In this document: one piece after another, positions 19,456-35,292 of the stretch
How positions within the stretch are numbered: the first letter of the stretch is position 1
How the letters are laid out: each line of letters opens with the position of its first letter
Assembly: GCF_019084045.1 (NCBI RefSeq)
Contig: NZ_JAHRED010000001.1
Span: forward strand, 62,001-126,000
DNA: 64,000 bases
Reading direction: 5' to 3'
Source of the DNA: Paeniglutamicibacter quisquiliarum
GTDB taxonomy: Bacteria > Actinomycetota > Actinomycetes > Actinomycetales > Micrococcaceae
The notes under the pieces: model-generated
Told to the model about the DNA's origin: nothing
What the model saw: only the letters and a program-made list of their open reading frames with translations
The model's database searches: none
Translations under genes and position numbers: made by a program

Positions 19456-19604
19456 GAAAGGGCCTTTCTCGAGTGTGGGTGCTTCGGGCCGTGGCGATGC
19501 CTGGGCCCGAATCGCTGCCGGCGGGGAACGCTGCCGGCACTATCGAGAATGGCGGTCCGATATTGCCGAGAATTACGAGAACGGAAGACTCGAAATGACG
19601 TGGA

Positions 19605-19618
19605 GTTGAACGTTCAAC
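19605..19618. promoter_or_regulatory. Perfect palindrome upstream of phnD
   Basis: GTTGAACGTTCAAC is a 14-base perfect palindrome about 150 bases upstream of phnD, in the 265-base gap to modC. Size and symmetry fit a TetR-type operator for the operon's own TetR. The rest of the gap holds a repeated CGCTGCCGGC and a weak GC hairpin downstream of modC, with no other clear feature. Confidence 0.5.
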
Positions 19619-19720
19619 GACGCTGATCCAAGCGACGCTTTCGAAGTCCGTTTCTTGCCTGCTGCGGCGGTTCCCGCGGACCCATTTTCAGTCCCGGCGA
19701 AGCGGGAGGGCTCCGGAAAA

Positions 19721-20767
19721 TCAGGCGGCGTAAATGGTGACAGCGGTGGCCTTGAGCACGAAGTAGGCGCGGGTCCCGGGCACCAGTCCGAGGTCGGCGA
19801 GCGCGGCCGGGGTGATGTCGGCGGCCAGCTCCCCGGCACGCACCCGGATGGCGTCGCCGTGCGGCTCCAGGTCGGTGACGGTTGCCTCGAGCATGTTGCG
19901 CGGGCTGCCATGCGGTGGATCCAGGTATACCGAAACGGCGGAAGCGGGGAATGCCGCTGCCGCGGTCTCGCCGGGGACCAGCTCGGTTTCACGGGTGCCG
20001 AAGATCCGCCCGAAGGCCGTGTCGATTCCTTCCCCGTGGGCAGTGCCGGTGACCAGGTTCAGCCCGGCGAGCCCGGCGGCGAAGCGGGATCGCGGCCGGC
20101 CCAGCACGTGGCGGGTCGGGCCCGCTTCGGTGATGCGTCCGTTCTCCAGGATGACGATCTTGTCGGCCAGCATCAGCGCATCGAGGATGTCGTGGGTGAT
20201 GATGATGGCGCTGCGGTCGGCGAGGACATGTTTGAGCAGTCGGCGCATCAGGGGTGCGGCGTGGATGTCCAGGGCCGCCATGGGTTCGTCGAGCAGCAAC
20301 AGGTCGGGTCCCGCCGCCAGCGCCCGGGCGACCGCGACCCGCTGCGCCTGTCCGCCGGACAGTTCGCCGGGCTTCCGTGCGGCCAGGGTCTGGGTGTCAG
20401 TGGCTTCGAGCCACCGGCGGGCCGCCACCCTGGATTTGGCCGCGCCGGCGCCCTTGCTCCGCGGACCGAACGCGACGTTCTCGAGCACGCTCAGGTGCGG
20501 AAAGAGCAGGGGTTCCTGCGCAAGCAACGCGGTGCCCCGGGCGTGCGGCGCCACCCAGCAGGGACGAGCGGCGGACAGGTCAAAGAGCGTGCGCTCGCCG
20601 ATGAACGCCCGTCCGGAGTCCGGGCGCAACAACCCGGCCATGATGGAGAGCAATGTCGACTTGCCGGCCCCGTTCGGTCCCAAGACCGCGAGGGTCTCGC
20701 CCCGGGCAAGGTCCAGGGAGACGTCGAAATTCCGTTCGGTGAGTGTGGCCTCGAAGTGGATCGTCAC
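19721..20767 (-). CDS. modC: Molybdate ABC transporter ATP-binding protein
   Basis: A 348-residue ATPase. Walker [11 protein letters not shown] lies near residues 29-38, the signature is ELSGGQAQR, Walker B is [12 protein letters not shown] and the switch is IIITHD. A C-terminal extension of about 110 residues from GTAHGEG on is consistent with the molybdate-binding Mop/TOBE domain of ModC ([18 protein letters not shown]). Translation starts at GTG within a GTGA overlap with modB. It is the last gene of the molybdate operon. Tungstate transport is an alternative. Confidence 0.88.
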
Positions 20768-21615
20768 CCTGCCGCCCCCGGCCTGGCCTTCTTCGAGCGG
20801 GTGCTGCCATAGGACAGGGCCACCACGATGACGGCCACGGCAACCAGGACCAGGGACAGCGCCACCGCTGCATCGGCGTCGGTCTCGCGCTGCAGGTAGA
20901 TCTCCAGGGGCAAGGTCCGGGTAACACCCTGCAGGGATCCGGCGAAGGTCAGCGTGGCCCCGAACTCCCCGAGACTGCGCGCAAAGGAGAGGACCGCGCC
21001 CGAGGCCAGGCCAGGCAGCACCAGGGGAAGGCTCACCCGGCGCAGTACCGTGGTCGGCCGTGCACCCAGCGTTGCTGCAACGGCCTCGTATTTTCCCCCG
21101 GCGGTGCGCAGGGCACCCTCGAGGCTGACGACCAGGAAGGGCAGGGCAACGAAGGTCTGGGCCAGGATCACCGCGGTGGTGGAGAACGCGATCTGGATCC
21201 CCGCAATCTCAAGACTGCGGCCCAGCAGGCCCTGGCGCCCGAAGGTGTAAAGCAGTGCGATGCCGCCCACCACCGGCGGCAGCACCAGCGGCAGGAGCAC
21301 GAAGGCCCGCAGCACGCGCTGGCCCGGGAAGCTCCCGCGGGCCAGGACCAGTGCCAGCGGAACACCCAGGACGATGCACAGTGCGGTGCTGGCCGCCGAG
21401 GTGCGCAGGCTCAGGCCCAGTGCGCTCAGCGAGGATTCGGAGGTGACCAGCGGGATGAATTGGGACCACTTGACCTTGGCCACCATGGCGAGAAGCGGAA
21501 GCAGGACGAACAGGGCGCCCACGCACGCGAGGGCATAGATCCAGGGGGGAACCGCGCTGTATCCGGCCCCGCCGCGCCTGAACATCGGGCGGCTACGGAG
21601 TTCCAAAACCGGCAT
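20764..21615 (-). CDS. modB: Molybdate ABC transporter permease
   Basis: A 283-residue permease with five to six helices. The EAA loop [20 protein letters not shown] is followed by [20 protein letters not shown], a typical ModB segment. The start at 21615 follows AGGAAGG and overlaps modA by 23 bases; a later ATG (MFRRGG) is less well supported. Works with ModA and ModC. Confidence 0.9.
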
Positions 21616-22387
21616 CGGTGAGGACCTTCCTGCCTTCGGGGCCGGCTACGAACTCGGTGAATGCATTGGCCAGGTCCTTGCTGGGGCTGGTGGCGACAGT
21701 GGCGAGGGGGTAGGTATTGACAGCCGTCTTGGCTTCGGGGAACTTAATTCCCTTGACCTTGTCGCCGGCGGCCAAGATGTCTGTGACATAGACCAGCCCG
21801 GCATCCGCCTCGCCGCTTGTCACCTTGCCCATCACATCGGTGACCGAGGATTCCTCGCTGACTGGTGCCAGGGGGGTCTTCGTGGATTCTTCCACGGCCT
21901 TGGTGGCAGTTCCGCAGGGTACCTGGGGCGCGCAAATGACGACCTTCACCCCCTGGCCGGCAAGGTCGGCAAACGTGGATATCGAGGCAGGGTTGTCCGG
22001 CGGGACCGCGATGGCAAGGGTGTTGGTTGCGAACGTTCTCGGTGCGCCGTCGAGGAGTCCCGCCTCGGACAGCTTCTCCATGTTGCCCGGGTCGGCCGAG
22101 GCAAATACGTCCGCGGGGGCACCGGCGGTGATTTGCGTGGCCAGGTCCGAGGAACCGGCGAAGCTCAGGGCGATTTTGGTGCCGGGGTGTTGTGCCTCGA
22201 AGTCGCCGGCCAGCCGCGTGAAGGTGGTCTTCAGCGAAGCCGCGGCGAACACGGTGATCTCGCCGGAAAGCCCACCTGAGGAGCCTGAAGCGCCGGCATT
22301 GTTGGCAGTGCCCGAAGTGCAGCCGGCTAGCGCGGCAGCAAGGATCGCTGCTGCCAGAAGTGTGGGGCTCTTGCGCAAGGCGCTCAT
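21593..22387 (-). CDS. modA: Molybdate ABC transporter substrate-binding lipoprotein
   Basis: A 264-residue binding protein. The signal peptide ends in ALAGC with lipidated Cys23. The mature region begins [13 protein letters not shown], the classical ModA start, and continues with [25 protein letters not shown] and [11 protein letters not shown]. It overlaps the upstream HTH-TOBE gene in an ATGA junction, so uptake and regulator genes are co-translated. Confidence 0.92.
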
Positions 22388-22952: not shown

Positions 22953-23420
22953 TCAGTCGCGAAACGCAATGCGTGAGAGCAGGTCGCGCAAGGTCTCCTG
23001 CTCGGATTGGTTCAAGCTCGCCATGGCAACGGCCTCGCCCTCGGCGGTGGCCTTGCGGGCCTTCCTGTAGAGCTGTTCGCCGGCCTTGGTGCCGGTGATG
23101 ACCTTGGAACGGCGGTCGTTGGGATCGGCGGTGCGCTCCACTAGCCCGTCGCCCTCCAAGGCATCCACCAGCGGCACGATCTGGCTCGGGTCCAGCGAGA
23201 GAAATTCCGCCAGCTCGCGCTGGGTCGGCGCCATGCCGCTGCATGCCAGGGAAAGTACGGAGTAGGAGCGGACCTTCAATCCCAGGGGGGCCAGCAGCTT
23301 GTTGGCGCGGGCGGATCCGAGCGATCTTGTGCGGGCGGTGAGGAACTCGATTTCTCCGGCCAGTTCGCTGGTCAGGAATCGGTCAATGGTGTTCATGATG
23401 GTGCCCGGCTTGGTCGCCAT
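22953..23420 (-). CDS. phdR: MarR-family regulator (PhdR/CouR-like)
   Basis: A 155-residue MarR-type winged helix protein. The recognition region TQRELAEFLSLDPSQIVPLV is followed by the wing TADPNDRRSKVITGTKAG. It is divergent from a five-enzyme phenylpropanoid-type set. In Corynebacterium (PhdR) and Rhodococcus (CouR), a MarR repressor in this position is released by hydroxycinnamoyl-CoA. That parallel is the basis for the symbol. The start at 23420 follows GGGGTAG; an alternative ATG at 23396 is possible. A strong dyad lies in the promoter gap. Confidence 0.75.
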   Translation of the reverse strand: MATKPGTIMNTIDRFLTSELAGEIEFLTARTRSLGSARANKLLAPLGLKVRSYSVLSLACSGMAPTQRELAEFLSLDPSQIVPLVDALEGDGLVERTADPNDRRSKVITGTKAGEQLYRKARKATAEGEAVAMASLNQSEQETLRDLLSRIAFRD

Positions 23421-23446
23421 GGTGCTACCCCTAGGGATCGATAAGA

Positions 23447-23480
23447 AACTTAATCGTTGACTTTATCAAGAGTTTAAGTT
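23447..23480. promoter_or_regulatory. Nested dyad, putative MarR operator A
   Basis: An outer perfect repeat AACTTAA (23447-23453) / TTAAGTT (23474-23480) surrounds an inner TTGA-CTTTA-TCAA (23457-23469) with almost the same centre. It lies between the divergent MarR and SDR genes in an AT-rich promoter stretch. The inner TTGA-N5-TCAA recurs at 27223-27235. Confidence 0.65.
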
Positions 23481-23547
23481 GTTATGTATATATCAAGGTT
23501 CCCACGACCGGGTCGGCGGGGCAATAACTACCCTCGAAGGAGCAGAC

Positions 23548-24474
23548 ATGTCACTGGCTGGAAAAGTTGCAATCGTCACCGGCAGCGGCCGCGGACTCGG
23601 CCTGAGCTACGCCCAGGAGCTCGCCCGCCAGGGTGCCGCCGTGGTCATCAACGACGTCGACGCCGACGTGGCCGCCGAGGCAGTCGCCTCGATCACGGCC
23701 GCGGGCGGCAATGCCGTGTCCGTCGTGGCACCGGTCGGTTCCACCGACACCGCCAAGTCCCTGGTGACAGCGGCAGTGGAGAACTTCGGCCGCCTCGACA
23801 TCCTGGTCACCAATGCCGGGGTGCTGCGCGACAAATCGATTCTGAAGATGACCGACGAGGACTTCGACCTGGTCATCAACGTGCACCTGCGCGGCACCTT
23901 CACCTGCGTCCGCGAGGCCTATGGCTACTTCAAGGAAAACAACATCGCCGGTCGCATCATCACCATCGGTTCGCCTACCGGCCAGCGCGGGAACTTCGGC
24001 CAGACCAACTACGCCGCCGCCAAGGCCGGGATCGTGGGCATGGTGCGCACCTGGGCCATGGAAATGAAGCGTGCAGGAGTCACCGTCAACGCCGTCATCC
24101 CGGTGGCCGCCACCGCGATGACCAAGACCGTTCCGTTCTTCGCGAAGGCCGTCGAGGCCGACGAGAGCGGCGAGGTCATGCCGGACTTCTTCCGCAAGGA
24201 GCTGGGCTTCGGCACGGCCGACGACGTCGCCGGGCTCATCGCCTTCCTCGCCTCCGAGGAAGCGGGCAGCATCACCGGCCAGGCCATCGGCGCCGGCGGG
24301 GACCGCCTGCAGTTGTGGAGCCACCCCGAGGCCATCGCCTCGGAATTCAACGACGGCGGCTGGGACTATGCCACCTTGCGCGAACGCTTCCCGTTCGGCG
24401 GCAACCTGCAGTCCGTCGGCGAGACGTTCCCCGAACTCCCCGCCGAGCTGCAGCCCGAGCCGGCCGCCAAGTAG
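23548..24474 (+). CDS. phdB: SDR 3-hydroxyacyl-CoA dehydrogenase (PhdB-like)
   Basis: A 308-residue SDR resembling the dehydrogenase part of multifunctional beta-oxidation enzymes: TGSGRGLGLSYAQELARQGA, VTNAGVLRDKSILKMTDEDF, then NYAAAKAGIVG with the YxxxK pair and a C-terminal extension. It would oxidise a 3-hydroxy-3-arylpropionyl-CoA to the 3-oxo thioester. The ATG at 23548 has GAAGGAG upstream. First gene of the catabolic run and divergent from the MarR. Role follows the phd/cou cluster model; another acyl-CoA is possible. Confidence 0.78.
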   Translation: MSLAGKVAIVTGSGRGLGLSYAQELARQGAAVVINDVDADVAAEAVASITAAGGNAVSVVAPVGSTDTAKSLVTAAVENFGRLDILVTNAGVLRDKSILKMTDEDFDLVINVHLRGTFTCVREAYGYFKENNIAGRIITIGSPTGQRGNFGQTNYAAAKAGIVGMVRTWAMEMKRAGVTVNAVIPVAATAMTKTVPFFAKAVEADESGEVMPDFFRKELGFGTADDVAGLIAFLASEEAGSITGQAIGAGGDRLQLWSHPEAIASEFNDGGWDYATLRERFPFGGNLQSVGETFPELPAELQPEPAAK

Positions 24475-24491
24475 AAAGTACCGGCACCACG

Positions 24492-25382
24492 ATGAGCGTT
24501 CGCTACGAATCCAACATCGACCTCAACGCGGTCACCGCGATCGACATGCATGTTCACGTCGAGGTCGATGACTGCGGGCACAAGGCCATGCCGGAGGACC
24601 TCTTCGAGGCCTCGGCCGCCTACTTCAAGTCCGAGGACCGCACCCCCTCGGTGGACCGCATCGCACAGGTCTACCGCGAGGCGAAGATGGCCGCGGTGCT
24701 GTTCACCGTCGATGCCCGCACCGCGCTGGGCCACGAGCCGAACTCGATCGATGACCTGGTGGCCGGGGCCGCGCGCAACAACGACGTGCTGATCCCCTTC
24801 GGGTCGGTAGACCCGCGCACCGGTCCCGCCGCGATTGCCGAGGCGCGCCGCCAGGCGGACGAGCTCGGCGTGCGCGGTTTCAAGTTCCATCCCTCGCTGC
24901 AGGGCTTCGACCCGTCAAGTGAGGAGTTCTACCCGCTCTGGGCGGCGTTGGAGGAGATCGGCTTGCCGTGCATCTTCCACACCGGCCAGAACGGCATGGG
25001 CGCCGGGCTCCCCGGCGGACGCGGCATCAAGCTGCGCTACTCCAACCCGCTGCTGCTGGACGACGTGGCGGCGGACTTCCCGGGGCTGACGATCATCATG
25101 GCCCACCCCTCGGTGCCGTGGCAGGACGAGGCGAACTCGATCGCCACGCACAAGGCGAACGTGTTCATCGACCTCTCGGGCTGGAGCCCGAGGTACTTCC
25201 CGGCATCCCTGGTGAAGATGAGCAACAACGTGCTCTCCACCAAGGTGCTCTTCGGTACCGACTACCCGCTGATTACCCCTCAGAAGTGGCTCGGAGCCTT
25301 CGCCGAGCTGCCGCTGAAGGACGAGGTGCGCCCGCTGATCCTCAAGGACAACGCGGTGCGGGTGCTGGGACTGGGCAAATAA
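24492..25382 (+). CDS. phdC: TIM-barrel amidohydrolase (PhdC/CouO-like beta-keto thioester hydrolase)
   Basis: A 296-residue amidohydrolase-2 family enzyme. Metal-binding elements are visible: DMHVHVE near the N-terminus, GFKFHPS, CIFHTGQ, IMAHPS and FGTDYPL. In phenylpropanoid clusters of C. glutamicum and Rhodococcus, this family takes the place of a thiolase and hydrolyses the 3-oxo-arylpropionyl-CoA to a hydroxybenzoate and acetyl-CoA. Its position between the SDR and acyl-CoA dehydrogenase genes fits that. The stop overlaps the next start (TAATG). Decarboxylase activity is the main alternative. Confidence 0.78.
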   Translation: MSVRYESNIDLNAVTAIDMHVHVEVDDCGHKAMPEDLFEASAAYFKSEDRTPSVDRIAQVYREAKMAAVLFTVDARTALGHEPNSIDDLVAGAARNNDVLIPFGSVDPRTGPAAIAEARRQADELGVRGFKFHPSLQGFDPSSEEFYPLWAALEEIGLPCIFHTGQNGMGAGLPGGRGIKLRYSNPLLLDDVAADFPGLTIIMAHPSVPWQDEANSIATHKANVFIDLSGWSPRYFPASLVKMSNNVLSTKVLFGTDYPLITPQKWLGAFAELPLKDEVRPLILKDNAVRVLGLGK

Positions 25383-26569
25383 TGGCCGACTTCTACCCCA
25401 GTGACCAGTACGGGTTCGCCCGGCTGCTTTCCGACGCGGAGCGCGCGGCGCTGCTGCGCCTGCGCGCCGTGCTCGATGAGCATGTGCGTCCGGTGCTCAG
25501 CGACCATTGGGAGCGCGGGAAATTCCCCGAATCCATCATCGCCCCGCTCGTAAGCCTGGACATGATGCGGCCGGCCGAGGTGCTGGCCGCCGGCGAAACG
25601 GTCCGTGGCCTCTTCGGCGGCTTCCGGAACTTCGAGCTGGCCCGGGTGGACGCCTCGGTCGTCACCTTCTACAACGCCCAGTCCGGGCTGTTCCGCACCA
25701 CGGTGAACCTGGGCGGCAGCAAAGAGCAGGTCGCCGAGCTGGACCCGCGCATCGCCTCCTACGAGTACAAGGGCGTCTTCGCGCTCACCGAGCCGGAGCA
25801 CGGGTCGGACATTGCCGGGGGACTGGAAACCCGGGCCACGTTCACGGCCGACGGCCAGGGCGGGCACTGGGTGATCAACGGCGCCAAGCGCTGGATCGGG
25901 GGAGCGGCCCAGGCCGACGTCCTGGCGGTCTTCGCCCGCGACACCGCCGATTCCAAGGTCAAGTGCTTCCTCGTGCCGACGGATGCCCCGGGGGTGAAGC
26001 TGATCAAGATCGAGCGCAAGACCTCCCTGCGGATCATGCAGAACGCCGACATTGAGCTGAGCGACGTGTCGGTGCCCGACTCGGCGCGGCTGGCGAACAT
26101 CAACTCGTTCGCGGACGTCGCCGCCTGCCTGCGCAACATGCGCTCGGACGTCGCCTGGATCGCCGCCGGCGCGGCGGCGGGCGCCTACGAGGCGGCGTTG
26201 AAGTACGTCACGGAACGCCACCAGTTCGGCAAGCCGTTGGCGTCCTTCCAGCTGATCCAGGAGAAGCTCGCCACGATGCTCACCAACGTCACGGCATCCC
26301 TGGCCATGGTGGTCAGCCTGACCCAGGCGCAGGACGGGGGCATCTACAGGGACGAGAACTCGGCCATGGCCAAGATGTTCACCGCGCGCATGCTGCGCGA
26401 GACCGCCGCCCTCGCGCGGGAGGTCTGCGGGGGCAACGGCATAGTGCTGGACTACGACGTCGCCCGCTTCCACGCCGACGCCGAGGCCATCTATTCCTAC
26501 GAGGGCACCGACGAGATCAACGCGTTGATCCTCGGCCGGGCCATCACCGGCATCGGGGCCTTCCGATAG
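25382..26569 (+). CDS. phdD: Acyl-CoA dehydrogenase (PhdD-like)
   Basis: A 395-residue FAD enzyme with ALTEPEHGSDIAG, INGAKRWIGGA, RHQFGKPLASFQLIQEKLA and REVCGGNGIVLDYDVAR. The catalytic Glu lies in YSYEGTDEIN near the C-terminus. It is close to the glutaryl-/short-chain branch. In the phd scheme it would desaturate arylpropionyl-CoA so that saturated phenylpropionates enter the same route. It is co-translated with the preceding gene through a TAATG overlap. Confidence 0.82.
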   Translation: MADFYPSDQYGFARLLSDAERAALLRLRAVLDEHVRPVLSDHWERGKFPESIIAPLVSLDMMRPAEVLAAGETVRGLFGGFRNFELARVDASVVTFYNAQSGLFRTTVNLGGSKEQVAELDPRIASYEYKGVFALTEPEHGSDIAGGLETRATFTADGQGGHWVINGAKRWIGGAAQADVLAVFARDTADSKVKCFLVPTDAPGVKLIKIERKTSLRIMQNADIELSDVSVPDSARLANINSFADVAACLRNMRSDVAWIAAGAAAGAYEAALKYVTERHQFGKPLASFQLIQEKLATMLTNVTASLAMVVSLTQAQDGGIYRDENSAMAKMFTARMLRETAALAREVCGGNGIVLDYDVARFHADAEAIYSYEGTDEINALILGRAITGIGAFR

Positions 26570-26646
26570 ACCGCCTCCCCGGCGCCACCAGGTTTTTAGC
26601 CAAACACCTCAATACCAACCACTTACATCAATAAGGAGAACCCATC

Positions 26647-27102
26647 ATGGGCCAGACAGTACTTTCCTACGAGCAGCTTGCGACCGCCGCCGGCACCGAC
26701 CTGGGTTACAGCGATTTCCGCACCGTCTCCCAGGACCAGGTCAACACGTTCGCCGACGCGACCGACGACCACCAGTGGATCCACACCGACCCGGAAAAGG
26801 CCAAGGACGGCCCCTTCGGCGGGCCGATCGCGCACGGCTACCTGTCGTTGAGCCTGCAGATCGCCTTCTGGTCGGAGCTCTTCGACGTCACCGGCGTCTC
26901 CACCCGCGTGAACTACGGACTGGACAAGGTCCGCTTCCCCTCGCCGGTCCCGGTCGGCGCACAGATCCGCATGAAGGCGCAGATCGCCGAGGTCGAAGAG
27001 GTCAAGGGCGGCTACCAGATCGCCGTCGACCAGGTCGTCGAGGTCGAGGGCGCCCCGAAGCCGGCCGTGGTGTCGCGCGGCATCTACCGCTTCTACGCCT
27101 AG
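26647..27102 (+). CDS. phdE: MaoC-like enoyl-CoA hydratase (PhdE-like)
   Basis: A 151-residue hot-dog-fold hydratase. The R-hydratase catalytic motif FADATDDHQWIHTD is followed by GPFGGPIAHGYLSLSL. It would hydrate hydroxycinnamoyl-CoA to the 3-hydroxy thioester for the SDR. AAGGAGAACCCATC precedes the ATG. It is the last gene before a terminator-like hairpin, closing the enzyme run that starts at 23548. Confidence 0.85.
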   Translation: MGQTVLSYEQLATAAGTDLGYSDFRTVSQDQVNTFADATDDHQWIHTDPEKAKDGPFGGPIAHGYLSLSLQIAFWSELFDVTGVSTRVNYGLDKVRFPSPVPVGAQIRMKAQIAEVEEVKGGYQIAVDQVVEVEGAPKPAVVSRGIYRFYA

Positions 27103-27113
27103 CATCCAGCAAG

Positions 27114-27148
27114 AGGTCGGGAGCCCGCCGGGGGTGTTCCCGACCTTT
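27114..27148 (+). terminator. Terminator after the phdBCDE-like run
   Basis: AGGTCGGGA (27114-27122) pairs perfectly with TCCCGACCT (27138-27146) around a GC-rich loop and is followed by TT. It separates the enzyme genes from the downstream transporter operon, which has its own promoter region. Confidence 0.75.
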
Positions 27149-27221
27149 GCGGTTTCCGCGGATGGTTTCCGTGCGGAATATTTCGCCATATTCACGGAAA
27201 CCGGGCGGGAAAATGACAACT

Positions 27222-27236
27222 ATTGATTTTTTCAAT
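27222..27236. promoter_or_regulatory. Putative MarR operator B before the importer operon
   Basis: ATTGA-TTTTT-TCAAT is a 15-base dyad in a markedly AT-rich stretch about 95 bases upstream of the first binding-protein gene. Its core TTGA-N5-TCAA equals that of the dyad at the MarR/SDR promoter, suggesting the same regulator controls both. Confidence 0.6.
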
Positions 27237-27330
27237 GATTGTGATTAGATTGTTCCATGTGGCAGGGGTCACAAAAATCTCGCGGTTGGGGCGTAGATGC
27301 CTGGGCCATCATTTTCACCAAGGAGCATCC

Positions 27331-28329
27331 ATGAAGAAGCGTTTGTCCACCATCCTCGCCGGGGCATCGATTGCGGCGCTCGCGCTCACGGGGTGCGGCC
27401 AGGGATCGCCCTCGGGTTCCGCCGCCACGAATTCCGACTCCACCGCTGCCTCGGGTTCCGGCGGATTGACCAAGGTTGTTGTCGGCGTCTTGCCGATCGC
27501 CCCGTCCGTCGCCGTGAAGTACGGAATCGACAAGGGCATCTTTGAAAAGCACGGGCTGGACGTCGAACTCACCACCAGTTCCGCCGGTGCGGCAATGCTT
27601 CCCGCCGTCTCCACCGGCGACCTGAACTTCGCCGTCGGCAACCCGCTCTCGGTGCTGACCGCGGTCGACAAGGGCTTGGACATGAAGATCGTCTCGGGCT
27701 ACTCCGATTCCAAGGCCACGGGCGATGACATCAATGGCGTGGTGGTGCGGGCGGACTCGGGCATCAAGGACTTTGCCGGTCTCGCCGGCAAGACCACCTC
27801 GGTCAACGCGCTGAAGACCCAGGGAGACCTGACCATCATGGAATCCGCCGCGATCGACGGCGGGGACCCCGGCGCATTGAAGTTCTCAGAAATGCCGTTC
27901 CCCGACATGGAAGCCCAGCTCGAACGCAAGAACATGGACGCCGTTTGGCTCCCGGAGCCGTTCCTCTCCAAGGCGCTGGCCAACCCGGACAACGAACTGC
28001 TCGGCTACCCGAACCAGAAGGCCATCCCGGGCCTGCCGACCATGGTCAGTTTCACCAGCGGCAAGTTCGCCCAGGAGAAGCCCGAGGTTGTCGCGGATTT
28101 CAAGGCAGCCATGTCCGAAACCCTTGAGGCCGCCGAGGGTGACCAGGCAGGGGCAAAGGCACTGTTGCCGGAATTCATGAAGATGGACGCCAAGGTGGCG
28201 AAAAACCTGAAGATGGAAACCTGGGACGGAGTGGTGCCCGGCGAGCAGCTCGCCAAGCTGGCCGAACTTGCCGCCAAGCAGAAGTTCCTTTCCAAGGCCC
28301 CCGACGTCGCGGCCATGACCGTCAAGTAG
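27331..28329 (+). CDS. NMT1/SsuA-type ABC substrate-binding lipoprotein 1
   Basis: A 332-residue binding protein. The signal peptide ends ALTGC (lipidated Cys22), followed by a Ser/Thr-rich linker. The mature domain has the NMT1/SsuA pattern: VVVGVLPIAPSVAVKYGIDK, IFEKHGLDVELTTSSAGAAM, LPAVSTGDLNFAVGN. AAGGAG precedes the ATG. It opens the operon with a CoA ligase, a second binding protein, two permeases and an ATPase. Together with the neighbouring enzymes, a hydroxycinnamate or related aromatic acid is the likely ligand; this is inferred. Confidence 0.83.
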   Translation: MKKRLSTILAGASIAALALTGCGQGSPSGSAATNSDSTAASGSGGLTKVVVGVLPIAPSVAVKYGIDKGIFEKHGLDVELTTSSAGAAMLPAVSTGDLNFAVGNPLSVLTAVDKGLDMKIVSGYSDSKATGDDINGVVVRADSGIKDFAGLAGKTTSVNALKTQGDLTIMESAAIDGGDPGALKFSEMPFPDMEAQLERKNMDAVWLPEPFLSKALANPDNELLGYPNQKAIPGLPTMVSFTSGKFAQEKPEVVADFKAAMSETLEAAEGDQAGAKALLPEFMKMDAKVAKNLKMETWDGVVPGEQLAKLAELAAKQKFLSKAPDVAAMTVK

Positions 28330-28393
28330 CAACACCACAACGTACAAAGTAGATGGTGTGCCGGCCTCGGGGCCGGCACACGGGAAGGCACCC

Positions 28394-29938
28394 ATGCTCA
28401 ACCAAGGCCTCGGCGGCTGGATCCACAAGCGCCGCGTCAAGTCGCGGGACCACGCTGCCGTCATTGAAGGGGAAAAACTCCTCAGTTACGCGCAGCTGGC
28501 GACCCGTATCGACAGGCTGGCCAACGCGCTCCGCTCGTTGGGAGTGGAAAAGGGCGGCCGCGTGGCCTACCTGGGCAACAACCACTCCGCCTTCCTGGAG
28601 ACATTGTTTGCCTGCGGCGGCATCGGTGCCATCTTCGTTCCGCTCAATACCCGACTGACCCCGCGTGAACTGAACTACGCGCTAACCGACTCGGGCAGCA
28701 CCGTGCTTATCAACCCGGTCTCCCTGCAGGATCTGGCGCTGGCGGCCATCGCTGAAAGCCCCGTCGAGCACCACATGGTGCTCGACGACGAGCCCGGGGC
28801 CGACTCGGCCTATGAGCGCGCACTTTTGGCCGCGGACGCCGGATACCGGGACTTAGCCGTCGGCCACGAGGACCCGGCCATCATCCTGTACACCTCCGGA
28901 ACCACCGGACGGCCCAAGGGTGCGGTGCTGACCCACGGTAACATGACCTGGAATGCCCTCAACGTCCTGGTCGACTACGACGTGACCAGCGATGCGAAGG
29001 CGCTGATGATCGCCCCAATGTTCCACGTCGCCTCGCTGGGCATGGGCGCGCTGCCGACGCTGCTCAAGGGCGGAACCCTGGTGCTCCAGGACCGCTTCGA
29101 GCCCTCGGCAGTGTTGGCGGCAGTGGAGCGCCACTCGATCACCTCGCTCTCCGGGGTTCCGACCACCTACCAGATGCTGGCCGAGCACCCGGCCTGGGAA
29201 ACGACGGACATTTCCTCGCTGCGCATGCTCACCTGCGGCGGATCCGCCGTCCCGATGCGCGTGCTCGAGGCCTACCAAAAGCGGGGGCTGGGATTCTCCG
29301 GCGGCTACGGCATGACCGAAACCGCGCCGGGGGCCACCTCCCTGCAGGCCGAACGTTCCCGCTCCAAGGCAGGATCGGCCGGACTGGCGCATTTCTTCAC
29401 CGACGTCATGATTGTCGACCCCGCCGGTGCCGAGCTGCCGGCCGGCCAGGCCGGCGAGATCCTGATCTCGGGCCCGAATGTGATCAAGGAATACTGGCAA
29501 CTTCCCGAAGCCAGCGAGTCGGCCTTCATAGACGGCCACTGGTTCCGTTCCGGGGACATGGGGTACCTGGATGACGAGGGGTTCCTGTACATCTCCGACC
29601 GACTCAAGGACATGATCATCTCGGGCGGGGAGAACATCTACCCGGCCGAAGTTGAGCAGGCGATCATGGAGCTCGAGGGAGTGGCCTCGGTGGCCGTCAT
29701 CGGTGTCCCGGACGAGAAGTGGGGCGAGGTTCCCCGGGCAGTCGTCGTGCCGGCCGCCGGCGCCGACATCACCGAAACACAAATCCAGCAACACCTGGCC
29801 GGGCGCCTGGCCAAGTACAAGATCCCGCGCAGCGTGGTGCTCACGGACGATTTCCCACGCACCGCCAGCGGCAAGATCCGCAAAACCGACTTGCGCAAGA
29901 CCTTCGGCGGGACGACCCCGCCGGTTCACACCAGCTAA
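28394..29938 (+). CDS. phdA: Acyl/aryl-CoA synthetase (PhdA-like)
   Basis: A 514-residue AMP-forming ligase. The AMP-binding motif YTSGTTGRPKGAVLTHGN, the GGYGMTETAPG segment, SGGENIYPAEVE, the hinge region SDRLKDMI and the terminal catalytic Lys in TASGKIRKTDL are all present. It would convert hydroxycinnamates to CoA thioesters, the first step before PhdE, PhdB and PhdC. The ATG at 28394 follows GGGAAGG. Sitting between two binding-protein genes is unusual and suggests uptake tied to activation. Confidence 0.82.
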   Translation: MLNQGLGGWIHKRRVKSRDHAAVIEGEKLLSYAQLATRIDRLANALRSLGVEKGGRVAYLGNNHSAFLETLFACGGIGAIFVPLNTRLTPRELNYALTDSGSTVLINPVSLQDLALAAIAESPVEHHMVLDDEPGADSAYERALLAADAGYRDLAVGHEDPAIILYTSGTTGRPKGAVLTHGNMTWNALNVLVDYDVTSDAKALMIAPMFHVASLGMGALPTLLKGGTLVLQDRFEPSAVLAAVERHSITSLSGVPTTYQMLAEHPAWETTDISSLRMLTCGGSAVPMRVLEAYQKRGLGFSGGYGMTETAPGATSLQAERSRSKAGSAGLAHFFTDVMIVDPAGAELPAGQAGEILISGPNVIKEYWQLPEASESAFIDGHWFRSGDMGYLDDEGFLYISDRLKDMIISGGENIYPAEVEQAIMELEGVASVAVIGVPDEKWGEVPRAVVVPAAGADITETQIQQHLAGRLAKYKIPRSVVLTDDFPRTASGKIRKTDLRKTFGGTTPPVHTS

Positions 29939-29953
29939 GGACTATCGACGACC

Positions 29954-30934
29954 ATGAAGAACAAACTCACACTCGCAGTGGCCGCCTTGGGAATCCTCGC
30001 ATTGGGCGCCTGCGGTTCGGGCTCACCCAGCGGCACCGCCGCCGACAGCGCCGCAGCCTCCGGTCCGGGCGGGCTGGAAAAGATCACCGTGGGTGTCATC
30101 CCGATCGTGGACACCGCCCCGATCTTCCTCGGAGACTCCAAGGGCTTCTTCGAAGCCGAGGGGCTGGACCTGGACATCCAGACCGCCACCGGTGGATCGG
30201 CCATCGTCCCGGGAATCCAGTCCGGAAGCTACGACTTTGCCTTCTCCAACCTGGTCTCGCTCATGGTCGCCAACGACAAGGGCCTGAGCATGAAGGTGGT
30301 GGCCAACGGCGTGACCACCACCGGCAACGCGGACAAGGACTTCGGTGCCGTCGTGGTCCCGAAGGACTCGCCGATCAAGAGCCCCAAGGACCTTGCCGGC
30401 AAGAAGGTCTCGGTCAACAACCTCTCCAACATCGGCGACATCACCGTGTCCCAGATCGTCAAGGACGACGGTGGAGACCCGAACACGGTCGACTTCGTCG
30501 AGGTTCCGTTCCCCGAGGCACCGGCTGCACTGGAAAACGGCATTGTTGATGCCGCCTGGATCCTCGATCCCTTCCTGGCCACGTCGCTCGAAGACGGCTC
30601 CCGGGTCGTCAGCCACAACTTCGTGGACTTCGATCCGGAACTGGACATCGCCGGCTACTTCACCTCCGCCGAGAAGGTCGCCGCGGAGCCGGAGCTGACG
30701 GCCAAGTTCCAGCGCGCCATGAACAAGTCGCTCGAATATGCCCAGGAGAACCCGCAGGAAGTCCGCGACATCGTGGGCACCTACACCAAGATCGATGAGG
30801 AAACCCGAGGAAAGCTCGTGATGCCGCGCTACCGCGTGGACATCAACACCGAAGCAGCACAGAAGCTCGGCGACGCTGCCCAGGAATTCGGCGCCATCGA
30901 CAAGCCGGTTGACCTCCAGGTACTGCTGCCATGA
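29954..30934 (+). CDS. NMT1/SsuA-type ABC substrate-binding lipoprotein 2
   Basis: A 326-residue binding protein with a lipobox LGAC (Cys20) and the same fold as the first binding protein (ITVGVIPIVDTAPIFLGDSK, GFFEAEGLDLDIQTATGGSA). Similarity to protein 1 is evident but partial, so the two probably bind different ligands. Its stop overlaps the first permease start (ATGA). One permease pair and one ATPase follow, so two receptors apparently serve one channel. Confidence 0.83.
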   Translation: MKNKLTLAVAALGILALGACGSGSPSGTAADSAAASGPGGLEKITVGVIPIVDTAPIFLGDSKGFFEAEGLDLDIQTATGGSAIVPGIQSGSYDFAFSNLVSLMVANDKGLSMKVVANGVTTTGNADKDFGAVVVPKDSPIKSPKDLAGKKVSVNNLSNIGDITVSQIVKDDGGDPNTVDFVEVPFPEAPAALENGIVDAAWILDPFLATSLEDGSRVVSHNFVDFDPELDIAGYFTSAEKVAAEPELTAKFQRAMNKSLEYAQENPQEVRDIVGTYTKIDEETRGKLVMPRYRVDINTEAAQKLGDAAQEFGAIDKPVDLQVLLP

Positions 30935-31770
30935 CCCAGATGACTGAATCGTCCACACGTGCCGCGGTGCGGGCCAAGGCCTCCCGCGCGCCGTCCAAGG
31001 GCCTGCCGAAGTGGGTGCTGGGGCTGATCGGCATTGTGGCGTTCCTGGGTTTCTGGGAGTTGATGCCGGTGATCGGTGCGGTGCAGGCCAAGTACCTGCC
31101 ACCGGCCTCCGAGGTCCTTGCCGCACTTGTCACGGACCTGGGGCTGACGGCCTTCTGGGTGGCGGTGGGCGACACCATGCTGGCCTGGGCGATCGGCCTG
31201 GCGATGGCCGTGGCCGCGGCCCTGGTGCTGGGCCTGGTGATCGGGATGTCGCCGTTCCTGCGGCGTTTCACGAACTCGACCATCGAGTTCCTGCGCCCGA
31301 TCCCGTCGGTGGCGCTGATCCCGCTGGCGGTGCTGCTCTTTGGCATCAAGATCGAGTCCGCGCTGCTGCTGATCGTCTACGCCTGCTTCTGGCAGGTGCT
31401 GATCCAGGTGCTCTACGGGGTGGCGGACGTGGACAACGTGGCGATGCAGACCGCCAAGTCCTACGGGTTCTCCTACCTGCAGCGGGTGCGGGACGTCGTG
31501 TTCCCCACGATGCTGCCGTACCTGATGACGGGCATCCGGTTGGCCGCCTCGGTGGCGCTGATCCTGGCGATCACCGCGGAACTGCTGATCGGGTCGCCCG
31601 GCCTGGGCAAGGAGATTTCCCTGGCGCAGTCCGGCGGCGCCATCGCCGGGATGTATGCGCTGATCCTGGCCACCGGGTTCCTCGGGGTGGCGATCAACGG
31701 TGTGACGCGTGTGGTGGAGAAGCGGGTCCTGTCCTGGCACCCGTCGGTTCGCGGGGAGGCGACGGCATGA
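30931..31770 (+). CDS. ABC transporter permease 1 (SsuC/TauC-like)
   Basis: A 279-residue membrane protein with about six helices. The EAA loop reads TAKSYGFSYLQRVRDVVFPT and the segment TAELLIGSPGLGKEISLAQS follows. It starts in an ATGA overlap with the second binding protein and ends in another overlap with permease 2. It pairs with permease 2 in a probable heterodimer. Confidence 0.86.
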   Translation: MTQMTESSTRAAVRAKASRAPSKGLPKWVLGLIGIVAFLGFWELMPVIGAVQAKYLPPASEVLAALVTDLGLTAFWVAVGDTMLAWAIGLAMAVAAALVLGLVIGMSPFLRRFTNSTIEFLRPIPSVALIPLAVLLFGIKIESALLLIVYACFWQVLIQVLYGVADVDNVAMQTAKSYGFSYLQRVRDVVFPTMLPYLMTGIRLAASVALILAITAELLIGSPGLGKEISLAQSGGAIAGMYALILATGFLGVAINGVTRVVEKRVLSWHPSVRGEATA

Positions 31771-32540
31771 AAACCCTGAAATCCATTGGCTACCTGCTGG
31801 GGTTGCCCGTCATCCTGCTGGCCTGGTGGTGGCTGGCCACCTCCGGGGAGCCGAACTTCTTCGTGCCCACGCCCTCAAGGCTGGTCACGACCTTCGTCGA
31901 GACCTGGTTCGGGGAGCGGATGCTCACCGACGTGCTGCCGAGCATCATGCGCCTGGTGTTCGGGGTGCTCGCCGCCATCGTGCTGGGAATCGCCCTGGGG
32001 CTGGCCGTGGGCCTGAACCGCACGCTGCGCGCGGTGACCGAGCCGGTGTTTGAGTTCTTCCGGGCGCTGCCGCCGCCGGTCTTGGTTCCGGTATTGATGC
32101 TTTTGGTGGGCATCAACGACGGGATGAAGATCGCCGTGATCATCTCCGGCTGCATCTGGCCGGTGCTGCTGAACACCATCGAGGGCGTGCGCTCCATCGA
32201 CCCGGTGCAGAACGAGACATCGCGCTCCTACGGGATCACCGGGTTCGCCCGGATCCGCTACCAGATCCTGCCCTCGGCCACCCCCACCATCATGGCCGGG
32301 GTCCGCCAGGCCCTGTCGATCGGGTTGATCCTGATGGTCATCTCCGAAATGTTTGCCTCGTCCTCCGGCCTGGGGTTCACCATCGTGCAGTTCCAGCGGT
32401 CCTTCGCGGTTCCGGAGATGTGGTCAGGCATCGTGGTCCTGGGGCTGATCGGTGTGGCCTTGTCCTTTATCTTCCAATGGGTCCAACGGCGCGTGCTGCG
32501 CTGGTACCACGGCCTGAAAGAGGTTGAAAATGCTGTCTAA
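31767..32540 (+). CDS. ABC transporter permease 2 (SsuC/TauC-like)
   Basis: A 257-residue membrane protein. The EAA-type loop is ETSRSYGITGFARIRYQILP, followed by VISEMFASSSGLGFTIVQFQ. The ATG overlaps the permease 1 stop (ATGA). It is more similar to aromatic/sulfonate-type permeases than to peptide types, but this does not fix the substrate. Confidence 0.86.
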   Translation: MKTLKSIGYLLGLPVILLAWWWLATSGEPNFFVPTPSRLVTTFVETWFGERMLTDVLPSIMRLVFGVLAAIVLGIALGLAVGLNRTLRAVTEPVFEFFRALPPPVLVPVLMLLVGINDGMKIAVIISGCIWPVLLNTIEGVRSIDPVQNETSRSYGITGFARIRYQILPSATPTIMAGVRQALSIGLILMVISEMFASSSGLGFTIVQFQRSFAVPEMWSGIVVLGLIGVALSFIFQWVQRRVLRWYHGLKEVENAV

Positions 32541-33393
32541 CAATCCCACGTCCCACGCCGGAGGCCGTACCCTGCCCGAGGGGCAGGCACTGCTCTCGGT
32601 GCGGAACCTGAAGAAGGTCTATCACACCGACGCCGGGGACATCGAGGCGGTGCGGAACCTGACCTTCGACCTGGGCCGCGGCGAACTGGTCTGCCTGGTC
32701 GGGCCCTCGGGCTCGGGCAAGACCACGCTGCTCAAGTGCATCGCCGGCCTGCTGGGGAGCACCTCCGGGGAGGTGCTGCTTGACGGGCAAAAGGTCACCG
32801 GGCCGCCGAAGAAGATGGCGGTCGTCTTCCAGGAATACGGCCGCTCCCTGTTCCCGTGGCTGCGCGTGGCGGAGAACGTCGAGCTGCCGCTGAAGAACGC
32901 GGGGGTTCCCAAGGAGGAACGCAAGCGCCTGGTGGCCGAGGCGTTGGAGGCCGTGGGCCTGGCGCATGTGCCCAAGTCCTACCCGTGGCAGCTTTCCGGC
33001 GGCATGCAGCAGCGCGTGGCGATCGCCCGGGCGGTGGCGTACCAGCCGGAGGTGCTTTTGATGGACGAGCCCTTCGCGGCCGTCGATGCGCAGACCCGTG
33101 CGGACCTGGAGGACCTGATCCGCAGCGTCTGGAAAAAACTGGGCGTGACCGTCCTGTTCGTTACCCATGACATCGACGAGTCGATCTACCTGGGGGAGCG
33201 CGTCATCATCCTCTCCTCATCGCCGACCATCGTGCAGGAGGACATCGTCATCGACCTGCCGGCCGAACGCGACCAGCTGGAGACCCGGTCGCTGCCGCGC
33301 TTCACCGAACTGCGCCACCACGTCTACGCGGAAATCCAGAAGGCCAAGCAGGGGCACCGCCCCGAGGGAGCCATCACCATGGTCGCCAAGTAG
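32530..33393 (+). CDS. ABC transporter ATP-binding protein (SsuB/TauB-like)
   Basis: A 287-residue ATPase. Walker A GPSGSGKTT spans residues 58-66, the Q-loop is VVFQEYGRSLFPWL, the signature LSGGMQQR, Walker B VLLMDEPFAAVD and the switch LFVTHDIDE. The ATG at 32530 with AGAGG upstream was chosen; a TTG at 32524 is an alternative. It overlaps permease 2 by 11 bases. It closes the importer operon and is followed by a strong terminator. Confidence 0.88.
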   Translation: MLSNNPTSHAGGRTLPEGQALLSVRNLKKVYHTDAGDIEAVRNLTFDLGRGELVCLVGPSGSGKTTLLKCIAGLLGSTSGEVLLDGQKVTGPPKKMAVVFQEYGRSLFPWLRVAENVELPLKNAGVPKEERKRLVAEALEAVGLAHVPKSYPWQLSGGMQQRVAIARAVAYQPEVLLMDEPFAAVDAQTRADLEDLIRSVWKKLGVTVLFVTHDIDESIYLGERVIILSSSPTIVQEDIVIDLPAERDQLETRSLPRFTELRHHVYAEIQKAKQGHRPEGAITMVAK

Positions 33394-33503: not shown

Positions 33504-34085
33504 TCAGGGGTTGAGCCGGTCGACGAGCTTCAGGCCACGCCGTGCCCAGGCGATTTCGGCTTCGGCCTGGGACATCAGCCCCTCGTAGGTAAAGAGCTTG
33601 TAGGCCCGGGTCTTTTCTTGGTCTGCATCCGGAGTGTGGGCCAAGCGGCGATTGAGCATGGTGCTGGTGCCGTCCTCGATTTCCCGCACGGTGTCCCGCC
33701 ACTGTTCAAGCAGTCCGGCGTGGTGTTCGATGTGTGCACGCAACTGCCGGCGGGCGGCGTCGGGTTCTGCCCATTCCAGGTAGGCGGCCTTGAGGTGGGC
33801 GGGGTCGCGGGTGCGCGCATATTCCAGCGGCGTGTTCATCCAGTTCCTGAACGCGGCCCGTCCGGCCGCGGTGACGTGGTACTGGCGCTTCTTGCCGCGC
33901 GGACCCCAAGGGATGTCCTCGCCTTCGAGCAACCCCTCGGCCTCCATGCGCTTGAGCGCGGGATAGATCTGCGAATCGGGGGCATGCCAGACGTGCCCGA
34001 CGGAGGACTCGAACTGTTTGTGCAGGTCGTACCCGGTCATGGGCTCGACGACGAGCAGGGCCAGCAATGCGTTGGGAAGACTCAT
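33504..34085 (-). CDS. vanR: PadR-family repressor of the vanillate operon
   Basis: A 193-residue PadR protein of the longer VanR type. The winged helix occupies about residues 5-85 (LALLVVEPMTGYDLHKQFES, SQIYPALKRMEAEGLLEGED, KRQYHVTAAGRAAFRNWM), and a C-terminal dimerisation helix follows. The start MSLPNALL follows GGAAAG; a longer start is unlikely. It is divergent from vanABK, as in Corynebacterium, where VanR is a vanillate-responsive PadR repressor. The gap carries a matching operator. Confidence 0.88.
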   Translation of the reverse strand: MSLPNALLALLVVEPMTGYDLHKQFESSVGHVWHAPDSQIYPALKRMEAEGLLEGEDIPWGPRGKKRQYHVTAAGRAAFRNWMNTPLEYARTRDPAHLKAAYLEWAEPDAARRQLRAHIEHHAGLLEQWRDTVREIEDGTSTMLNRRLAHTPDADQEKTRAYKLFTYEGLMSQAEAEIAWARRGLKLVDRLNP

Positions 34086-34121
34086 GGCAACTTTCCGGTA
34101 CCTAGGTGTTGCCAATCACTA

Positions 34122-34197: not shown

Positions 34198-35292
34198 ATG
34201 ACCGCCGTCGCCGCGACCAGCTCCACCACGAACAAGATCCTGCCCCACCCGCTCAATGCCTGGTACGTCGCTGCCTGGGACCACGAGGTCACCCGCAAGC
34301 CCATGTCCCGCCGCATTGCCAACCGCCCGGTGGCGCTCTATCGCACCGAGGACGGAAAGATCGTGGCACTGGCCGACGCTTGCTGGCACCGATTGGCCCC
34401 GCTCTCCATGGGAAAGACCGTGGGCAAGGACGGAATCCAGTGCCCGTACCACGGCATTGTCTACAACTCCGCCGGTCGCTGCGTCTCCATGCCCGCACAG
34501 GAAACCATCAACCCGTCCGCCACGGTCCCTTCCTTCCCGACCGTGGAGCGCTACCGCTACGTGTGGATCTGGATGGGTGACCCGACCCTGGCCGACCCGG
34601 ACCTGGTGCCCGACATGCACCAGATGACCAGCGATGAATGGGCCGGAGACGGGCTGACCATCCACGCTGCCTGCAATTACCAGCTGGTGCTGGACAACCT
34701 CATGGACCTGACCCACGAGGAGTTCGTCCACTCCTCCACGATCGGCCAGGAGGAACTGAGCGAATCCGATTTCGTCACCGTCCGCGAGGGCAACAAGGTC
34801 ACGGTCACCCGGTGGATGCACAACATCGACGCCCCGCCGTTTTGGCTAAAGAACATGCGCGACAAGTTCCCCGGCTTCGAAGGCAAGGTCGACCGCTGGC
34901 AGATCATCAACTTCGAGGCGCCCTCGACCATCAGCATCGACGTGGGCGTTGCCAAGGCCGGCACCGGCGCCCCGGAGGGCGACCGCAGCCAGGGCGTCAA
35001 TGGCTTCGTGATGAACACCATCACCCCGGAGACCGACCGTTCCTCCCATTACTTCTGGGCCTTCATGCGCAATTACTGCCTGGACAGCCAGCTGATCACC
35101 ACGCAGCTGCGCGACGGCGTGCACGGGGTCTTTGGCGAGGACGAGGAAATGCTTCAGGCGCAGCAGGCGGCCATTGACGCCAACCCCGATTACGAGTTCT
35201 ACAACCTGAACATCGATGCCGGCGGCATGTGGGTGAGGCGCATCCTCGAGTCCATGTTGGCCGCCGAGGGCCGTCTAGTCGCCTCCGCCTAA
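34198..35292 (+). CDS. vanA: Vanillate O-demethylase, Rieske oxygenase subunit
   Basis: A 364-residue Rieske non-haem iron oxygenase that converts vanillate to protocatechuate and formaldehyde. The Rieske cluster ligands are Cys62/His64 (CWHRLAPL) and Cys82/His85 (CPYHGIVYN). The mononuclear iron region is DNLMDLTHEEFVH. The ATG follows AAAGGAATCCCC. vanB lies 41 bases downstream, and VanR-like operators lie in the promoter. The 35-kb neighbourhood contains all downstream protocatechuate genes. Confidence 0.94.
   Translation: MTAVAATSSTTNKILPHPLNAWYVAAWDHEVTRKPMSRRIANRPVALYRTEDGKIVALADACWHRLAPLSMGKTVGKDGIQCPYHGIVYNSAGRCVSMPAQETINPSATVPSFPTVERYRYVWIWMGDPTLADPDLVPDMHQMTSDEWAGDGLTIHAACNYQLVLDNLMDLTHEEFVHSSTIGQEELSESDFVTVREGNKVTVTRWMHNIDAPPFWLKNMRDKFPGFEGKVDRWQIINFEAPSTISIDVGVAKAGTGAPEGDRSQGVNGFVMNTITPETDRSSHYFWAFMRNYCLDSQLITTQLRDGVHGVFGEDEEMLQAQQAAIDANPDYEFYNLNIDAGGMWVRRILESMLAAEGRLVASA

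Follow-up and report, generated by a model that had tools for sequence, protein, structure and literature searches.

The question of how hydroxycinnamate-type acids enter an actinobacterial cell is raised by a locus of Paeniglutamicibacter quisquiliarum (Micrococcaceae; assembly GCF_019084045.1), located at positions 22953-33393 of a 64,000-nucleotide stretch of contig NZ_JAHRED010000001.1 (hereafter the window), in which genes of the type named cou in Rhodococcus and phd in Corynebacterium glutamicum are followed by those of an ATP-binding cassette (ABC) importer. To our knowledge, hydroxycinnamate uptake in the characterised actinobacterial clusters has been credited to carriers of the major facilitator superfamily (MFS). 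We propose, with a probability of about 0.78, that the operon at 27331-33393 encodes a NitT/TauT-type ABC importer of hydroxycinnamate-type acids for the adjacent cou/phd pathway. This importer very probably belongs to the hydroxycinnamoyl-CoA regulon, given the perfect match to the CouR repressor box before its first receptor gene, the rarity of that box in the genome, and the recurrence of the box core with a spacer of 5 bases in related loci, including those of Microbacterium.

Organization of the locus

Eleven genes were confirmed at 22953-33393, each as an open frame with a start codon, and ten of the eleven proteins pass a Pfam family cut-off in one scan (permease 2 was outside that scan). 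The regulator gene is divergent from the others, and the order of the genes and sites is as follows:

22953-23420, minus strand: MarR-family regulator, CouR-like (PhdR/CouR); best solved relatives 5cyv and 3fm5, operator residues kept
23457-23469, no strand: core of the CouR box, TTGA-N5-TCAA, between the divergent marR and SDR genes; same place in relatives
23548-24474, plus strand: short-chain dehydrogenase/reductase (SDR), CouN/PhdB-like; 65% identical to the SDR of the R. opacus cou cluster
24492-25382, plus strand: amidohydrolase (Amidohydro_2), CouO/PhdC-like; PF04909 at 178 bits, 63% to R. opacus
25382-26569, plus strand: acyl-CoA dehydrogenase (ACAD), PhdD-like by place; 28% identical to the R. 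opacus cou-locus ACAD
26647-27102, plus strand: MaoC-type hydratase, CouM/PhdE-like; Pfam match, 53% to R. opacus
27222-27236, no strand: perfect CouR box ATTGATTTTTTCAAT before the importer operon, over the -35 element TTGATT (27223-27228); -10 element TAGATT at 27246-27251
27258-27273, no strand: Crp/GlxR-like palindrome (presumed label) TGTGGCAGGGGTCACA, directly downstream of the -10 element
27331-28329, plus strand: receptor 1 (substrate-binding protein 1, SBP1), NMT1/NitT-TauT lipoprotein, candidate hydroxycinnamate receptor; PF09084, trees and structural model
28394-29938, plus strand: CoA ligase, CouL/PhdA-like; PF00501 at 310 bits, 44% to R. opacus
29954-30934, plus strand: receptor 2 (SBP2), NMT1/NitT-TauT lipoprotein; PF09084, 37% to SBP1
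30931-31770, plus strand: ABC permease 1; PF00528
31767-32540, plus strand: ABC permease 2; resembles the SaoP/TauC/SsuC/NtrB models, below their cut-offs
32530-33393, plus strand: ABC ATPase; PF00005

Within the importer block the intergenic gaps measure 64 and 15 bases and are followed by overlaps, so that receptor 1 through the ATPase reads as one operon, and the 228-base gap between MaoC and receptor 1 holds a likely promoter. Both receptors have a lipobox-like cysteine (LTGC and LGAC), which we take to be the lipoprotein attachment motif.

A CouR-like regulator beside cou/phd enzymes

The best solved relatives of the MarR protein, 5cyv and 3fm5 (88.4 bits each), are both CouR of Rhodococcus jostii RHA1. 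CouR represses the cou genes and is released by p-coumaroyl-CoA; its Arg36 and Arg38 are required for DNA binding, and Asp65, Ser67 and Gln68 likely read the DNA (PMC4737184, in its accessible text). Aligned to CouR, the window protein has Lys at Arg36 and Arg at Arg38, and Asp65, Ser67 and Gln68 are identical, that is, it carries the operator-contact residues of a CouR-like regulator as found with cou/phd clusters; according to the same source, position 36 is also Lys in the proteins of Arthrobacter sp. FB24 and C. glutamicum. Named genomes were scanned with an alignment led by the CouR chain, and the best 80 of 322 confirmed relatives, which were kept, included loci of R. opacus and R. jostii whose regulators are 99% and 96% identical to RHA1 CouR and in which MaoC, amidohydrolase and SDR genes lie divergent from the regulator. 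The SDR, amidohydrolase, MaoC protein and CoA ligase of the window are homologous to these Rhodococcus cou genes (identities to the R. opacus locus, L092, in the list above), which bears out the phd/cou identity that the initial annotation had assigned to the enzymes and regulator. For the window ACAD the R. opacus locus offers no close counterpart, and we take the position of the window gene to be that of PhdD in C. glutamicum. The presence of a cou cluster in Arthrobacter is not new, since conservation of the cluster in a number of Actinomycetales is already stated in the available part of PMC4737184.

Further cou-type amidohydrolases were encountered elsewhere. A second one in the same genome (G000:C1:441082-441942, 54% identical) sits among other genes, MFS genes included, that may form a sister aromatic pathway, and was set aside for that reason; another genome of the set (G003) has a second copy (C1:2637458, 92-93% identical) about 200 kb from its cou cluster with the other cou enzymes not beside it; and a copy 78% identical lies on a 1.35-Mb plasmid of Arthrobacter sp. 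StoSoilB13 (NZ_AP024648.1), whose record is unannotated.

The CouR box on the importer promoter

The CouR box is described as cATTGA-N5-TCAATg over the -35 element (accessible text of PMC4737184). The exact ATTGA-N5-TCAAT occurs once in the window, before receptor 1, with 0.02 expected by shuffling, and twice in the whole 4.44-Mb genome. The other genomic copy (C9:29309) lies inside an open coding frame, which presumably begins like PnuC, and was taken as chance. The importer box overlaps the -35 element TTGATT, 17 bases before the -10 element TAGATT, which together make a likely promoter. The shorter core TTGA-N5-TCAA is found three times in the window against 0.21 expected, a count reached in none of 100 shuffles; the divergent marR/SDR promoter has the core only and the importer promoter the full box. 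The initial annotation had proposed an aromatic-acid role without mention of this box, which lends that role support and ties the transport genes to the pathway in a way that can be tested directly.

The 61 fetched loci (1.152 Mb) hold 61 core sites, of which 48 fall outside the matched genes and no more than 350 bases upstream of one of them. The spacing between the half-sites was scanned in distinct 300-base upstream regions from the fetched loci, the window and the named loci, with identical regions merged, those under 200 bases skipped, and ligases below 40%, SDRs below 55% and ATPases below 50% identity left out. The core with spacer 5 occurs upstream of SBP1 in 16 of 34 regions, against 0-1 for any other spacer from 0 to 11; the corresponding figures are 62/103 for the SDR and 60/107 for marR (other spacers 0-4 in each case) and 14/99 for the ligase (0-1). 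It was also seen upstream of the ACAD (8/49), permease 1 (1/25) and the amidohydrolase (1/124), and not upstream of SBP2 (0/22), VanA (0/25), padR (0/13), the ATPase (0/24) or MaoC (0/101). Eleven permuted half-sites gave no occurrence in the SBP1, SDR and ligase regions. The core site stands 98-104 bases upstream of the SBP1 gene in loci of the Micrococcaceae type, and 83 and 70 bases upstream of it in two Microbacterium, where it precedes the genes for SBP1, permease 1, permease 2 and ATPase in that order. In one genome (G021) the permease-ATPase operon is placed apart, and a box precedes it as well as the receptor operon and the ligase operon; in another (G015) a box is also found before an MFS-like gene.

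Of the 17 box-bearing SBP1 loci that were read for the palindrome TGTGGCAGGGGTCACA, 14 hold a TGTG-N8-CACA counterpart (13 of 16 distinct ones, L048 and L158 having the same sequence). Its form is one that we take to be a Crp/GlxR site, and as such it would fit catabolite control. Two inverted repeats, GGTCGGGA...TCCCGACC and GGTTTCCGTG...CACGGAAACC, were spotted by eye at 27116-27201, between MaoC and the importer promoter.

Family of the importer

Both receptors are NMT1 (PF09084) proteins, and together with two BPD-type permeases and one ATPase they give the operon the composition of a NitT/TauT importer (permease 2 by curated models). The initial annotation's TauABC/SsuABC-type importer is thereby upheld at the level of the broad family: permease 2 is nearest to the SaoP/TauC/SsuC/NtrB models and the ATPase to the SaoA/taurine models, all below their cut-offs, and the specific TauABC/SsuABC cut-offs are not reached (SsuA family 93.7 and 112.7 against 163.5 bits). 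The LivK-type family is not listed among the family matches of the receptors, which match PF09084 and kin. Structural models of SBP1 and SBP2 have a predicted local distance difference test score (pLDDT) of 88.1 and 88.6, from alignments of 19 and 15 sequences respectively. In a fold search they match binders of hydroxymethylpyrimidine (HMP)/thiamine precursors, sulfonates, taurine and pyrroloquinoline quinone (PQQ; PqqT); the fold is thus confirmed, but since the matches bind many ligands it does not give the ligand.

These matches, and the fact that the best family names are SsuA/TauA/NMT1 and the best folds include HMP- and sulfonate-binding proteins, are what speaks for a sulfonate, taurine or thiamine-precursor system sitting in the operon by chance. 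We consider this highly improbable: the listed SsuA, TauA, TauC, SsuC and taurine/sulfonate ATPase models all fall below their curated cut-offs, the Pfam scan gave no sulfonate or thiamine enzyme in the operon, a CouR box stands in front of it, and SBP1 is linked to cou genes in three families. With scores short of the specific models' cut-offs and an aromatic context, such a role was rejected as the leading assignment.

Two receptors and one permease core

SBP1 and SBP2 share 37% identity and fall in separate clades, and the CoA ligase gene is flanked by the two receptor genes, so the arrangement of two divergent receptors with one permease pair and an intervening ligase stands as first described. 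In a tree of 59 receptor proteins, from which candidates with an incomplete frame or a length outside 251-419 amino acids had been dropped, SBP1 falls in a clade with support 100/99 that spans Micrococcaceae, Microbacteriaceae, Geodermatophilaceae and others; SBP2 and a third receptor type form clades of their own, confined to the window's family among the tree rows used. Within the genome SBP2 is the only other strong relative of SBP1 (38%; next hit 27.6 bits), and a second close copy of permease 2 was not found there (besides permease 1, best 31%); hence both receptors most likely share one permease core.

Of the two, receptor 1 is the better candidate for hydroxycinnamates, and we infer that receptor 2 would accept another aromatic acid, which would make the importer dual in specificity. 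A variant of the same explanation, with odds that overlap those of the proposal as a whole, is that both receptors bind the same hydroxycinnamates, either redundantly or with different affinity. We regard it as rather doubtful in view of the 37% identity and the well separated clades, the independent gain and loss of the SBP2 and third types among relatives, and lineage-specific changes in receptor loops, which in this fold presumably line the cleft and would shape the pocket. It does have a precedent, as the binding proteins CouP and TarP of Rhodopseudomonas palustris, though unrelated to each other, have almost identical ligands and dissociation constants (accessible text of PMC3610893).

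Distribution among relatives

In the class, an amidohydrolase match was obtained in 75 of 394 genomes, and gene order was taken from part of the 75. The genus set comprised 15 genomes including that of the window, one of them (G005) cut by a contig end. Ten of the 14 readable genomes have both receptors with the permease/ATPase core, so that the arrangement is conserved and not chance. Two more (G002, G011) have SBP1 and the core without a close SBP2, G002 having a remote SBP2 (32%) nearby. In three of the ten genomes with both receptors, G003, G012 and G014, a receptor of the third clade lies close by; G003 has a further SBP2-type receptor as well.

Elsewhere in the family the transport genes vary. 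G025 and G032 have an MFS gene and no ABC match; G031 has SBP2 and the core next to the ligase, with SBP1 about 18 kb away; G015 and G021 have three receptors; G017 and G018 have SBP1 without permeases in the stretch read; an importer match was not found in G019; and in G029 and G035 a contig end interrupts the locus. Microbacterium marinilacus and Microbacterium sp. Marseille-Q6965 have SBP1 as the single receptor with the core. The linkage of SBP1 to cou genes extends over Micrococcaceae, Microbacteriaceae and Geodermatophilaceae, and relatives have between 0 and 4 receptors, which suggests one permease core served by one to four receptors. Third-clade receptors mostly lie near padR-vanA, with a GCV_T folate-type demethylase-domain gene beside one of them (L083) and that of a thiamine-diphosphate enzyme beside another (L080). 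An Arthrobacter-like cou-importer block, most of its genes 75-92% identical, also turned up in a metagenome-assembled genome labelled Acidobacteria bacterium G2_11 (L165), probably a mis-binned contig.

These patterns lead us to a broader and tentative idea, which we would put at somewhat under even odds: an aromatic-acid hub, in which one NitT/TauT core would accept between one and four plug-in receptors, the set being variable and each receptor suited to a different plant aromatic acid, with receptor 1 for hydroxycinnamates, receptor 2 and the third clade for benzoate- or vanillate-type acids, and joint control by the hydroxycinnamoyl-CoA repressor and a Crp/GlxR-like catabolite site.

Relatives outside cou clusters and neighbouring genes

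A search of 72,556 plasmid records placed the best plasmid relatives on Paenarthrobacter aurescens TC1 pTC1 and Arthrobacter crystallopoietes pLDW-10 (permease 2 at 75 and 74%, SBP2 at 54 and 53%), where the gene block that holds them also encodes a ring-hydroxylating dioxygenase, a PdxA-like dehydrogenase, an amidase and an IclR-type regulator. The dioxygenase alpha subunit of pTC1, the one tested, scores 608.8 bits against terephthalate 1,2-dioxygenase 7q04. Rhodococcus antarcticus has a 45% permease relative beside genes that we take to be a gentisate pathway. Plasmid pRHL1 of RHA1 has one NMT1 receptor with adjoining ABC genes and, nearby, a dioxygenase at 629.5 bits against 7q04; by place this receptor is probably PatD of the phthalate importer PatDABC. 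The superfamily thus has aromatic-acid members; the window's importer and that of RHA1 are only distant relatives (19-26% identity). The two Arthrobacter-group plasmids with this dioxygenase block (L172, L173; of terephthalate type in pTC1) are typed as conjugative, and their NitT/TauT importer, encoded together with the dioxygenase and an amidase, is a candidate ABC terephthalate importer.

In the window itself, the importer operon adjoins putative genes for vanillate metabolism:

33504-34115, minus strand: PadR-family regulator, perhaps of the van genes; weak family matches
34198-35292, plus strand: VanA-like vanillate O-demethylase oxygenase; PF19112 VanA_C at 170.5 bits
35333-36337, plus strand: VanB-like reductase, named by place
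36429-37793, plus strand: aromatic acid:H+ symporter-like MFS protein, VanK-like by place; TIGR00895 at 353.8 bits, below the cut-off of 418.55

On the other side, at 17711-22387 on the minus strand just upstream, are genes resembling molybdate-type and phosphonate-type ABC transporters, judged from their translations alone.

The vanAB genes and these outside relatives could instead indicate an importer for by-products of the pathway or for some other aromatic acid, such as benzoates, vanillate or phthalate-like diacids, that shares no more than its regulation with the hydroxycinnamate genes. A ring-hydroxylating dioxygenase (of terephthalate type where tested) is encoded beside the nearest plasmid relatives, gentisate-type genes lie beside another relative, and in a second receptor tree, for which 11 of the 59 rows were left out (near-duplicates and two long branches) and four plasmid receptors added, the plasmid receptors group loosely with SBP2 types at weak support (84/76). 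We nonetheless hold this to be unlikely, because SBP1 is the sole receptor with the core beside cou genes in two Microbacterium and is boxed there, the CoA ligase lies inside the importer operon, and a separate MFS symporter-like gene accompanies the van genes.

Besides the fold matches, several observations weigh against a hydroxycinnamate importer under CouR-type control. A generic promoter scan with a threshold of 9 missed the importer promoter, which by hand has 8 of 12 consensus bases. The 13-base core is not rare alone, with 91 sites in the genome against 22 for a reversed control; for this reason the core motif by itself was dropped as proof in favour of its conserved position, the spacer of 5 and the full box. 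Eighteen of the 35 listed SBP1 homologues are without a core box, among them all eight Geodermatophilaceae-type loci, Arthrobacter mobilis (L155), Cryobacterium (L169), and L041, L044, L046, L085, L053, L060 and L170; the SBP1 locus L084 has nine of ten half-site bases. Some SBP1 loci (L041, L046, L169) have no permease in the stretch read, two genomes of the genus (G006, G007) keep the cou enzymes without such an importer in the stretch read, and in R. jostii NBRC 16295 a protein 41% identical to permease 2 is encoded outside the cou locus.

A proposed route for hydroxycinnamates

On balance we favour import of p-coumarate, ferulate, caffeate and kin by the following route, whose enzyme steps are drawn from the known pathway. 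Receptor 1 or 2 would capture the aromatic acid outside the membrane and dock on the single permease pair, with the ATPase powering import. The CoA ligase encoded between the receptors would form hydroxycinnamoyl-CoA, and the MaoC protein, SDR and amidohydrolase would trim the side chain to yield a hydroxybenzoate; the ACAD would perhaps admit saturated phenylpropionates, and the neighbouring vanAB would demethylate vanillate derived from ferulate. Hydroxycinnamoyl-CoA may cause the CouR-like repressor to leave both boxes (23457 and 27222), whereby enzymes and importer would be induced together.

If true, the proposal would account for scavenging at low concentrations through a CouR-regulated ABC importer whose receptors can be exchanged. 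Such an importer would be a source of specific sensors and uptake parts for lignin conversion, and would make the pathway a clear example of fixed enzymes around which transporters (MFS, ABC or none) are swapped.

Comparison with known systems

The cou cluster of RHA1 shares with the window the divergent MarR gene, the SDR, amidohydrolase, MaoC and CoA ligase genes and the CouR box, and the enzymes are 44-65% identical to those of the R. opacus locus, whose regulator is nearly that of RHA1. The cou loci closest to RHA1 (L092-L096) differ in having MFS genes, no match to SBP1, SBP2 or either permease, and no close ACAD (28%). In the phd cluster of C. glutamicum the importer is the MFS carrier PhdT. 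That cluster is likened to the window by its order (regulator / SDR-hydrolase-ACAD-MaoC), which we take to be the same, rather than by sequence, and differs in its importer. Its phdBCDE genes are cg0344-47 (accessible text of PMC5948850).

The initial annotation's remark that such clusters have an MFS importer thus holds for the five Rhodococcus loci; it does not extend to R. palustris, where CouPSTU, a hydroxycinnamate ABC importer, clusters with coumarate genes and shares CouR regulation, as stated in the available text of PMC3610893. CouP binds coumarate, ferulate and caffeate with nanomolar dissociation constants and is of the LivK family (same source), whereas the window, from an actinobacterium, has two NMT1/NitT-TauT receptors. 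The RHA1 phthalate importer PatDABC (accessible text of PMC10973024) is likewise an ABC importer of an aromatic acid, and its probable pRHL1 genes, assigned by place, include an NMT1-type receptor; these differ in having a single receptor and no cou genes among the neighbours scanned, with identities of 23-26% for the permeases and, for the receptor, 24% to SBP2 and 19% to SBP1. TauABC and SsuABC share the fold and the broad family of parts, but the window parts are below their specific curated cut-offs and stand in an aromatic context. A 2026 review names CouP, MFS and tripartite ATP-independent periplasmic (TRAP) systems for such compounds and mentions no NitT/TauT one in its accessible text (PMC13406360), and an actinobacterial ABC hydroxycinnamate importer was not found among the matches listed from the open-licence literature. 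ABC import of hydroxycinnamates as such is already known from CouPSTU, and the new points are the link of an importer to the pathway through a CouR box and its exchangeable set of receptors.

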